Below the pieces are notes generated by a model. That model was not told the origin of the DNA. It was given only the letters and a program-made list of their open reading frames with translations, and did not search any database. The translations under genes and the position numbers were made by a program. From assembly GCA_022661535.1 (NCBI GenBank), contig JAKULF010000006.1, positions 2,165,001-2,229,000 of the forward strand: a DNA stretch of 64,000 nucleotides. Reading direction: 5' to 3'. Of this stretch, positions 54,473 to 58,492 are shown piece by piece (the first letter of the stretch is position 1; every line of letters starts with the position of its first letter). This DNA is from Eutypa lata (taxonomy: Eukaryota; Ascomycota; Sordariomycetes; Xylariales; Diatrypaceae).

Positions 54473-55912
54473 CTAAGCAGCAGTAGCCAACGATTCGGGC
54501 TGGACACCGACCCGCTCCTTGCTGAGGATATCCAGCATGAACTGCGAAGGACGGTTGTCCTTGTACACGGGCTGGTAAGACTTGAAAGCCTTCACATCCT
54601 CGATATACTTGTCGAAGAGGTAGCTGCTGTCCATTGGGCCACCCCTAGCCTCAGGATGGAACTGGGTGGAGAAGATCGGCCGAGAGGTATGACGCATACC
54701 TTCGTTGCTCCCGTCGTTAAGATTCACGAAGTACTCTTTCCAATCACTGGAAAGGGTGCTGGAATCAACGGCGTACCCATGGTTCTGGCTAGTGATATGA
54801 CACTGTCCCGTCGTCATGTCAAGGGCTGGGATGTTGTGCGCTCTGTTGCCATACTTGAGCTTAATGGTACTAGCTCCTGCTGCGAGAGCTAGAAGTTGAT
54901 GGCCCAAGCAGATACCCATGATGGGGACCTGAGAGGTCTCCATGAGCACTTGCAGGTTGTGCACAGTGGATTGGCAGTGCGTTGGGTCTCCAGGGCCATT
55001 GGAGATAAAGACACCATCGTAGTTATCGGCCACCTTCTGAATCTTGAAATCATAAGGGAAGACCGTAACACTGGCTCCACGGCTGACCAAGCTTCGGAGA
55101 ATGTTCTCCTTGACACCACAATCAATCAAAGCGATGTGGTACTTGGGGTCGTGCGCCTCGACAACGAAGGGGGCTTTCGTGCTAACCTTCTTGACAAGGT
55201 TAATCTGGCTAGGATCGACGAAACTCTCGTCTTCGTCGGCATCGTACTCATCACCAACCGAGATTCGGGCCAGGGAGGAACCCTGCTCTCGGAGGTAAGT
55301 GACAATGGCACGGGTGTCAACGCCAGAGATGGCGGGAATGCCTTCTCGGGCACACCATGTGCCGAGGCTCTCAACAGCAGTCCAATGACTATATTGCTCG
55401 GCGACGTCGGCGACAACCACACCAGCACACTGGATATGAGGAGACTCGAAGTACCTCAGGAGGTTCCATTCGTCACGCTGCGAGGAAGGCACGCCATAGT
55501 TTCCAATCAATGGCTGCGTAAAGACCAGGATTTGTCCTCGGTAGGAAGGGTCGGTCATCGACTCAGGGTAGCCTACAAGGGAAGTGGTGAAGACGGCTTC
55601 GCCGGAAATGTTGGCGTTGGCACCGAAAGCAGTTCCCTGGAATACGGGTCCGTCCTACACTCTGATTAGCACCAATGCCATCACAGATGGCATCTAGCTG
55701 TAACATACCCTAATGGTGAGCGTGGCTTCCATGCCAGAGGCAGGAGCTGTGGCACGGGTGTAAGTCTGGGGCATAAGTCTGCCCTTGCTACCCTGCGCTG
55801 CCTTGCTGGCTAGAGTGGCCGCAGTTGTAGAAAGGCATCGTGCCTGGGGTTTGAGGCCCACGGCAATGATGGCGTGGGGCTTGGCAGCCCTGAAAGCAAA
55901 TCGGGAGAACAT
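54473..55912 (-). CDS. arg-2: Arginine-specific carbamoyl-phosphate synthase, small (glutaminase) subunit
   Basis: Splits glutamine and passes ammonia to the large subunit for carbamoyl phosphate, the first committed intermediate of arginine synthesis in mitochondria. Model: complement(join(54473..55654, 55709..55912)), 461 aa (Neurospora ARG-2 is 453). The 54-bp intron has GTATGT..GTGTAG ends and is in phase 0. The N-terminal 45 residues are rich in Arg, Ala and Ser without acidic residues ([12 protein letters not shown]...), a mitochondrial targeting sequence. The body begins at [17 protein letters not shown]. The class-I amidotransferase nucleophile is Cys317 in GICLGHQ, with the His-Glu pair in FHPEARGGP near 400. 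The mRNA leader carries the attenuator uORF at 55968-56253, whose stop lies 55 nt before this start codon. Translation is therefore expected to fall when arginine is plentiful. cpa1 is the yeast name. Confidence 0.96.
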
Positions 55913-55967
55913 GATGTTCTGAAAATTAGAAGTCGAGTATAACTAAAGCGATTATTCAATGAACCCC

Positions 55968-56253
55968 CTAGGCGCTAAGAGAACGCCACAAGTGGTCTGT
56001 AATTCATGTTAGCTTCGAGGCGGTGAGTCAGTGCTCGTTGGGGGGGATTTGGGCGGACCTGAGATATAATCCTGCGATCTAGTTAGTATATATCACCAGT
56101 AAAACAATTGGGGGTGTAATGGAAAGGAAATCATTGGCTGAGGTATTCAATTTTTCCGAACCTATCCAACAAGGATTGAAACATTATATCAGTGATGGCG
56201 ATGATGCCATTGACACGTACCTGTGAAGTGAAGACTGACGAGCGCCCGATCAT
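55968..56253 (-). CDS. Arginine attenuator peptide (AAP) uORF of arg-2, split over three exons
   Basis: Model: complement(join(55968..55996, 56059..56071, 56221..56253)), exactly 24 codons plus TAG. Spliced, it reads MIGRSSVFTSQ, then DYIS, then DHLWRSLSA. This matches the known fungal AAP length and core (SVFTSQDYxSDHLWR), including the essential Asp12. Exons are 33, 13 and 29 nt. The introns are 149 bp (GTACGT..CGCAG) and 62 bp (GTCCGC..TACAG). The 13-nt microexon encodes DYIS plus one base of the second Asp. Established knowledge: in the presence of arginine the nascent AAP stalls the terminating ribosome and blocks scanning to the main start codon, and can trigger mRNA decay. The match of length, spacing and sequence makes chance very unlikely, although the splicing itself is inferred. 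Confidence 0.93.
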
Positions 56254-57383
56254 AAGGGCTACTATGGATCAATTCCAGTCAGAATGGGAAAAGAGAAGGA
56301 GCACCGTGTGGTGAGAAAGATTAGAGGGTATTGTGAGTTTAGAAAGACATAAAGATAGTGTCAGTGTCAACAAGGGGTGGGAATGACTTGGTCAAATAAA
56401 TTCTCTCTGGGTTGGCGTAAAATGATGAAAATGATGTTGAATCAAGCGGGGCGATGAAAGTTGATATGACTGGTCTTGTTATGTCAGAAAAGCCAAAAAA
56501 TTTCAGCGCACCCCACCAGAGCTACCGAAAAATAGGGCTCTATCCAATTGGCTGACCTAAATTAGAAATCCATTAGCGTAAGAGTTAATTGTACCATTGC
56601 ATGTCCCCGATATCCAGCCTCAGCATTCCCGACTCCGAAAACGGCCTTGTAGGCATGACGACCACTGACGCCACTGGACAATAAATACCAATTGAAAGAA
56701 AAAGAGCAATGGATTCAAGGTAGGGAAGTATGGGATGTTTATAAAACAATTGTCTGGAAGATTAGCGAAGTGTAAATACCATGCTATATTTAAGCTCCTA
56801 TCTTAGCAATTGACTTCAACATCTTTCACATGTGATTGTTAAGTTTTTACCTGCTTTTCTTTGGTAACTTGATGATAATGAGCAAAGTCACAATCCTACT
56901 ACTTAACTATCACAAGGTGGTAGGTAAGTTTATTATCAAAGGCAGGCTCAAGGTAAATATATATACATATATATATATATCCACTAGAGTTGGAAATTTT
57001 AGACAAGGTAGGAAGCCGATGGCAAATAGAGTGAGGGAGCTTTAGGCATAACATTGGTCACTTTTTGAACATATACTCAAATAGGTGATTACTAAAGGAT
57101 GATCGGGGCTACAAGCTGTTAAAACCACGTAGTTGAATATACAGAAACATTCCGGTTACTAACTACAGGTTAATCGTATTTCATAGGTTTCATGAAGGTC
57201 AGAGGAACTGATGTCACAATGATTTATCTATCAATTCTGATCGTCAACTGGTCTTCGTCTGTCAAAGAGATAAGACATTCCCAACGTAGCATACCAAACA
57301 TTCATTTCATGTCTTCAAAGCTGTCATTCCCCAGACCAATGCTATGACCAGCTTGCATTTATACACAGAGCACCATTGCCACT
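56254..57383. other. arg-2 promoter and ETF beta 3' flank
   Basis: 1.1 kb, AT-rich. The part near 56254-56480 should hold the arg-2 promoter and transcription start. An AT-run (about 56958-56983) lies further away. No gene is supported. Confidence 0.45.
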
Positions 57384-58492
57384 CTATAAGACGCCCAACT
57401 CCTTGAGCTTGCCAACCAGGCCATCGACATCCTCAACCTTTCCACCTCCCTGCCTTGGCTCGGGTTCTGCAAGTAATCGGTTAGCAATAGGTAACTCGTG
57501 AATACTTTATCATCTGGTAGAGTGTTCTCCCATACTCCAACGCAGCCAGCTACTGCCCAAGAAAGAGCAAACAAACAGAGACAAAGGAAAAAGTAGCAAT
57601 CGAGGGGGAAAAGAAGGAGAGAAAAAAAAGGAAACCATACCCGTAACCTTCACAACCTTCAACCGCCTCTCATTCGCGACGCCCAAATCGCTCAAGCTCA
57701 GCTTAACCAGGGGCTTCTTCTTCGCCTTCATGATATTGGGCAGGGTAGCGAAGCGCGGCTCGTTCAGGCGCAGGTCCGTCGTGATGACCATGGGCAGCTT
57801 GGCGCGGACGGTGGCCACGCCGCCGTCGATCTCCTGCGTGACCTCGACCGCGTCGCCGCCGTCGACGAACCGGACGGCGCTCGCCTGGGTGGCCTGGCCC
57901 CAGCCCAGCAGGCCGGCGAGCATCGGGCCGGTCTGGGCGGCGTCGTCGTCGATGCTCTGCTTGCCGAGGATGACGAGGTTGGACCCCTCCCTGGCGACCG
58001 CGGCGCGCAGGAGCTTGGCCACGGCGAGCGGCTCCAGATCCCCCTCCTCCCCGTCCTTGACGTCGACGTGCACGGCGCGGTCGGCCCCCATCGCCATCGC
58101 CGTCCGCAGCACGTCCTGGGCCTTGGGCGGCCCCGCCGACACCACGCAGATGTCCTCGACGCCGCCCGGGGCCGACTTGCGCTCGCGGATGCGCACCGCC
58201 TCCTCGATTGACAGCTCGTCGAACGGGTTCATGCTGTGCTTGACGCCGGCCGTCTCGACGCCCGTCTGGGCTTTGTTCACGCGCGGTTTGACCTATTTGG
58301 ATAGTAGTTGTTGGTTAGCTTCTTTTTTTTTCTTCTTCTTTCCTTCCCGTCATGCGTGGCAGCTTAGTTTAATATTCTCGCATTTCACATGATTTTTTCA
58401 AGGACCGGTAGAGGTGTACGAGAACTAGAACTAGAACTTACCGCATAGTCGATTACCCGCTTCACGGGGACGAGGATCCGTAACGCTGACAT
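57384..58492 (-). CDS. Electron transfer flavoprotein beta subunit
   Basis: With the alpha subunit it forms the FAD-containing matrix protein that passes electrons from acyl-CoA dehydrogenases to ETF-ubiquinone oxidoreductase. Model: complement(join(57384..57466, 57641..58292, 58442..58492)), 261 aa, normal for the family. Exon 1 encodes MSALRILVPVKRVIDYA and joins directly to VKPRVNK. The introns are 149 and 174 bp. Recognisable segments are KHSMNPFDELSIEEAVRIRE, the ADRAVHV region, LVILGKQSIDDDAAQTGPMLAGLLGWGQAT (the family signature around the nucleotide site) and LPNIMKAKKKP, the loop that contacts partner dehydrogenases. The C-terminus after the last intron is the conserved arm ending GLVGKLKELGVL. 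Exon 2 is strongly GC3-rich. Confidence 0.95.

Follow-up and report, generated by a model that had tools for sequence, protein, structure and literature searches.

The closest described systems to the locus reported here are the uORFs that encode an arginine attenuator peptide (AAP). A 24-aa AAP is described for arg-2 of Neurospora crassa in the available text of PMC9604717. In Saccharomyces cerevisiae, the AAP of CPA1 has an inefficient start and gives an arginine-dependent stall at its stop codon, ahead of the carbamoyl-phosphate synthase small subunit (PMC7969011, available excerpt). The accessible portion of PMC7049704 describes repression of reporter synthesis by AAP uORFs and gives the mRNAs of yeast and N. 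crassa as targets of decay. For very short internal exons, an excerpt of PMC11121469 describes a 20-nt microexon in Xlr2 of Trichoderma virens, the use of which is reported to depend on glucose.

We analyzed a 64-kb window of Eutypa lata DNA that carries an arg-2 gene on its minus strand. The uORF that can be read ahead of this gene shares with the N. crassa AAP its length of 24 codons, 19 of its 24 residues and the family of the main ORF, and the two peptides differ at residues 2, 5, 14, 21, and 23. The key Asp of the S. cerevisiae peptide is D13, whereas the residue that we equate with it in E. lata is Asp12. To our knowledge, the S. cerevisiae CPA1 uORF has no intron. The E. lata uORF appears to be divided by two introns, which leave a middle exon of 13 nt. 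Like the Xlr2 microexon, this is a very short internal exon, and the length of the Xlr2 exon is likewise not a multiple of three. The latter, however, lies in the coding region of a transcription factor, whereas the E. lata microexon lies in a uORF and is predicted from sequence.

A predicted split AAP reading frame ahead of ARG-2

Joining the three minus-strand segments listed as uORF exons in Table 1 (33 + 13 + 29 nt) yields a uORF of 24 codons, MIGRSSVFTSQDYISDHLWRSLSA, followed by a TAG stop. One junction precedes Asp12, and the other splits the Asp16 codon behind its first base. The original prediction had given these coordinates, exon lengths, the 24-codon peptide and both junctions, and all of them were reproduced when the sequence was read again. 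An mRNA in which the three segments are joined would carry an AAP in the arg-2 leader. In size and flanking sites, the middle segment resembles switch-like fungal microexons (exons of at most about 30 nt with splice sites), as it is 13 nt long with AG before it and GT after it and its splicing is predicted.

Table 1. Features of the arg-2 region in window coordinates, with predicted exons, introns and sites
Feature	Position	Strand	Details
ARG-2 main ORF, part 2	54473..55654	-	full protein of 461 aa after removal of intron 3
Intron 3, within ARG-2 ORF	55655..55708	-	54 nt, GTATGT...TAG
ARG-2 main ORF, part 1	55709..55912	-	204 nt; AUG at 55912; start context AACATCATGTTC
Spacer, uORF stop to ARG-2 AUG	55913..55967	-	55 nt
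Candidate alternative acceptor CTAATTTTCAG	55919..55929	-	directly before ARG-2 AUG; branch A 7 nt from AG; sequence reading
AAP uORF exon 3	55968..55996	-	29 nt; remainder of Asp16, HLWRSLSA, TAG stop
Intron 2	55997..56058	-	62 nt, GC 0.565; weak donor CAG|GTCCGC; CTAAC 56012-56008; acceptor ACAG
TGAGTCA (TGACTCA on minus strand)	56024..56030	.	inside intron 2; only exact TGASTCA in 55600-57400
AAP uORF exon 2 (microexon)	56059..56071	-	13 nt, GATTATATCTCAG; Asp12 Tyr13 Ile14 Ser15 plus base 1 of the Asp16 codon
Intron 1	56072..56220	-	149 nt, GC 0.389; donor CAG|GTACGT; CTAAC 56086-56082; acceptor GCAG
AAP uORF exon 1	56221..56253	-	33 nt; encodes MIGRSSVFTSQ; AUG context GCCCTTATGATC

When compared with the PDB, the spliced peptide aligned over its full length with 2xl1, annotated as "arginine attenuator peptide" (E 1.1e-9, 38 bits), the sole distinct PDB sequence that it matched at E<=10. 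We take the 2xl1 peptide to be the N. crassa AAP. The two are of equal length and, apart from the five substitutions given above, identical, with SVFTSQDY and SDHLWR kept; exon 1 accounts for nine identities over its 11 residues in this alignment. Asp12, Tyr13, and Trp19, which presumably have roles in AAP function, are all present in the uORF peptide. As a member of the AAP class, defined by a uORF of 24-25 codons in the leader of the gene for the small subunit of arginine-specific carbamoyl-phosphate synthase (arg-2/CPA1), the frame has 24 codons and ends 55 nt before the ARG-2 AUG, its placement in the leader being predicted.

The main ORF downstream is ARG-2. Removal of intron 3 restores TIRDGPVFQG, a stretch present in homologues, and the resulting protein scores 465.8 bits against TIGR01368 (cut-off 307.35). 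Our list of homologues comprises the best 120 of 7999 scored matches. At its top is a Diatrype stigma protein (Diatrypaceae, Xylariales) with 96% identity, ranks 2-10 have 82-90% identity and include Apiospora aurea and Pseudomassariella vexata, both of the Amphisphaeriales, and a Neurospora protein on the list is 80% identical to ARG-2.

Because the junctions had been picked to give an AAP peptide, the chance control was fitted in the same manner. Every reading took 56220 as its first donor and used GT-AG introns no shorter than 40 nt, with the length of the middle exon capped at 42 nt, and 1000 dinucleotide shuffles were read under these rules. The score was the number of matches over 14 positions, namely AAP residues 12-24 and the stop. 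The best two-intron reading of the real sequence matched 11 of the 14 positions, whereas the best readings of the shuffled sequences scored 2 to 7, with a score of 7 in four shuffles and of 4 in 581. With a single intron, the best reading of the real sequence scored 3, the same level as the shuffles. The difference between 11 and the shuffle maximum of 7 practically excludes chance. One could still suppose that the pieces are the remains of an AAP, or a fortuitous likeness to one, that are no longer joined, and the weak donor of intron 2 would suit such decay. We consider this barely credible, since the frame is fully open, the length and stop match those of the AAP, the core is retained and none of the 1000 shuffles approaches the real score. 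Taken together, the 2xl1 match, the ARG-2 identity and the shuffle control back the earlier proposal of an arg-2 AAP encoded by three exons, and an arg-2 AAP uORF split in this way is a strongly supported prediction.

Some further observations concern ARG-2 and its relatives. A search of the E. lata genome (54.5 Mb, 29 contigs) for relatives of ARG-2 returned, besides arg-2 itself, two stretches on contig C10, at 54% and 51% identity, together with a weak match (31%) on contig C4. The C10 locus, at about 1.288 Mb (L002 and L003), is carbamoyl-phosphate synthase-like, with one of the stretches lying inside an open frame of 2053 codons, and it perhaps encodes the pyrimidine-pathway enzyme. Several ARG-2-like proteins from Claviceps (P0081-P0107) carry the label "Amino-acid acetyltransferase" in public records, and further ones are entered there as "Multifunctional pyrimidine synthesis protein CAD"; the domains listed for them, PF00117 and PF00988, are the same as those of the remaining homologues. 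With the Neurospora protein (P0017) as the query, seven pattern-matching stretches in the viral collection included none that encodes a relative, and 74 such stretches in the prokaryote collection included one, from the bacterium Ensifer, and none from a fungus.

Expected behavior of the spliced leader

The most likely account of the locus is an ordinary arg-2 AAP uORF, with both introns spliced in most transcripts and ribosomes stalling at high arginine, to which we assign a probability of roughly 0.88. Normal removal of the two introns would give an mRNA with the 24-codon AAP 55 nt upstream of ARG-2. The base at -3 is C at the uORF AUG and A at the ARG-2 AUG, so that the uORF context reads as poor and that of ARG-2 as better, a pattern that would fit leaky scanning. 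With such a poor context, initiation at the uORF would be inefficient and many ribosomes would scan onward to ARG-2. At high arginine, the nascent AAP would cause a stall at the stop codon of the uORF, and the stalled ribosome would block scanning and favor decay of the mRNA. Stalling, the response to arginine and leaky scanning are expected here by analogy with the N. crassa and yeast orthologues, and removal of both introns from most transcripts is likewise an expectation.

The intron 3 exon junction lies 259 nt downstream of the uORF stop (55 + 204 nt); where exon junction complexes operate in a fungus, this junction would favor decay. In yeast, the native CPA1 uORF context is inefficient and the AAP change D13N loses arginine regulation, as given in the accessible part of PMC7969011. 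The start contexts, the behavior of the yeast AAP, the targeting of AAP mRNAs for decay and the position of this junction together lead us to take the ordinary AAP mechanism as the most likely one.

If so, the core of an arrest peptide is apparently assembled from three exons, one of them of only 13 nt. Scans for uORFs on unspliced genomic DNA miss peptides split in this way. Judged by its title, the 2007 work of Hood, Spevak and Sachs (doi 10.1016/j.fgb.2006.07.009) is a survey of the fungal gene and its uORF. Introns have probably been reported before in some AAP uORFs, which is why we do not present the split uORF as new. Among the papers listed by our literature search, which covered titles and the openings of abstracts in a library largely outside the subscription journals, none concerned introns or alternative splicing in AAP uORFs.

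It should be noted that a further AUG on the minus strand at 56350, within 56254-56480, opens a frame of three codons (MSF). This would be a second, minimal uORF ahead of the AAP if transcription begins upstream of 56350.

Splice sites and possible alternative transcripts

Both uORF introns have GT-AG ends. Each also carries CTAAC as its branch site, and the branch A precedes the acceptor by 11 nt in intron 1 and by 12 nt in intron 2, where another branch candidate lies 31 nt from the acceptor. The predicted distances are near the median of 15 given for Trichoderma longibrachiatum in the available part of PMC4324775. The strength of the donors was assessed from the pairing energy with the U1 5' end, calculated for the 15 GT sites that lie from the uORF AUG down to 55920, a ranking that is independent of the peptide. 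The intron-1 donor ranked first (-9.8 kcal/mol) and the intron-2 donor second (-5.6 kcal/mol), followed closely by an unused GT at 56096 (-5.2). Elsewhere, the energy was -6.2 for intron 3 and -9.3 and -7.3 for two introns, identified by eye, in the neighboring gene at 57.4-58.5 kb. By energy, the intron-2 donor is thus the weakest among the five nearby introns compared. By letters shared with CAG|GTAAGT, it has 6 of 9 and is tied with two of the five introns and with an unused GT at 56239.

Two attempts at a splice-site model were abandoned. Intron finding at ORF flanks was run on 34 sequences totaling 188,254 bases (the window and L002-L034; L001, which overlaps the window, was omitted) and gave zero candidates at the first thresholds. 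Looser thresholds gave 70 GT against 95 GC, 71 GA, 80 CT, 56 TG, 80 AC, and 64 CA, and the model was dropped because real GT was no commoner than the decoy dinucleotides. Enrichment anchored on branch sites, for which L003 was also omitted, gave a signal too weak for a splice-site model. In its 202 modules, G at +5 occurred 185 times against 153 in control zones and GTCCGC once against 3.0; in the 69 modules with CTAAC, GTCCGC occurred once against 0.7 in controls.

We next consider the products of incomplete or alternative splicing. Retention of intron 1 gives a frame of 40 codons that runs 29 codons past exon 1 and has no AAP core, which is exactly the extension that the original prediction had named. 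It had also held that skipping of the microexon shifts the frame and loses the C-terminal half, and the skipped form indeed translates as a frameshifted peptide of 25 codons, MIGRSSVFTSQTTCGVLLAPRGFIE. A case that it had not included is retention of intron 2, which gives MIGRSSVFTSQDYISGPPKSPPTSTDSPPRS; Asp12-Ser15 are kept and residues 16-24 are lost. Splice forms were then enumerated, for which a donor had to share 5 or more of the 9 letters and an acceptor had to have a CTRAY branch site. DHLW was present in just two of the 88 resulting forms, namely the form predicted above and another that carries two additional residues, so the claim that mis-splicing abolishes the AAP core was correct. 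Splicing fidelity at this locus would directly determine whether arginine feedback is present.

The original prediction had suggested that splicing could act as a switch. In such a model, arginine or some other condition would shift the retention of either uORF intron or the skipping of the microexon; the AAP core would then be lost, and the uORF that remains would be a generic one without an arginine response. Both introns interrupt the peptide core, which few enumerated forms keep, and the weak intron-2 donor, as the one hint, fits some intron retention. Intron 1, at 149 nt, is long beside the T. longibrachiatum median of 72, and intron 2 is GC-rich (0.565); in that fungus, alternatively spliced introns are on average longer and GC-richer with a lower splice-site score, and 93.4% of alternative events are retention, as reported in the portion of PMC4324775 at hand. 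The Xlr2 microexon of T. virens offers a precedent (PMC11121469, available excerpt). Against this, intron 1 combines a strong donor with a low GC content (0.389), and intron 2 is a short one of 62 nt. Fungal splicing is believed to proceed mainly by intron definition (PMC4324775), under which small exons need no special help, so a 13-nt exon would be included without special regulation. There is also no sign of a regulatory RNA structure. An Rfam scan of 55500-56700 gave two matches, both below the gathering score (E 0.14 and 0.68) and both on the plus strand, and the fold of 55968-56253 had a z-score of 0.06, with 102 of 200 shuffles equally or more stable. We therefore regard regulated splicing of this kind as unlikely. 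If true, it would add a nuclear layer to the textbook translational control. Leader splicing under a TPP-type riboswitch was considered separately and rejected, as neither the Rfam scan nor the fold z-score points to a known structured RNA element.

The AAP could also be bypassed altogether, by splicing of exon 1 to the candidate acceptor at 55919 or by a transcription start within or beyond intron 2 that is controlled by the TGACTCA element, either of which would yield an arg-2 mRNA without an AAP. Joining exon 1 to the 55919 acceptor would place AAP residues 1-11 in frame with ARG-2 as an N-terminal extension, MIGRSSVFTSQNI. In four of the 88 enumerated forms, the frame opened by the first AUG continues into ARG-2, and this form is the simplest of the four; an in-frame match, however, has a 1 in 3 chance of arising. 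The intron would be 302 nt long with its branch A just 7 nt from the AG, features for which the 55919 acceptor may go unused. As for the element, we take TGASTCA to be a Gcn4/CPC1-type site. The sole exact copy in 55600-57400 sits in intron 2 and not in the upstream promoter, and one site with one mismatch is found at 56438. Exact TGASTCA nevertheless occurs 5 times in the window against about 8 expected (a hand estimate with equal bases), which is about the chance level. A search for fused AAP-ARG-2 proteins, a weak test, gave one candidate with shared words and none at E<=10. Five AAP words were absent from all 120 listed ARG-2 homologues (the best 120 of 7999), again a weak test. A bypass is, in our estimation, very unlikely.

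Parts of these two ideas can be combined into a splice-gated sensor, in which, owing to the weak second donor, a regulated fraction of the transcripts would keep intron 2 or would bypass exons 2-3 through 55919. Such transcripts would be immune to arginine stalling, the bypass form would encode an N-terminally extended ARG-2, and the spliceosome would set arginine control ahead of the ribosome. We hold this to be quite unlikely and retain the ordinary AAP uORF, spliced in most transcripts, as the preferred reading.

Two further features of intron 2 and its surroundings were also observed. An alternative AG at 56013 (CTCGAAG; minus strand, 56013-56058), likewise accompanied by a branch site, would shorten intron 2 to only 46 nt and alter the C-terminal half of the AAP. 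At the end of the microexon, CAG|GTCCGC (56057-56060, minus strand) juxtaposes AG and GT, and an acceptor at this position was listed in the enumeration. Use of that acceptor, followed by use of the intron-2 donor, would be a recursive-splicing path to skipping of the microexon.
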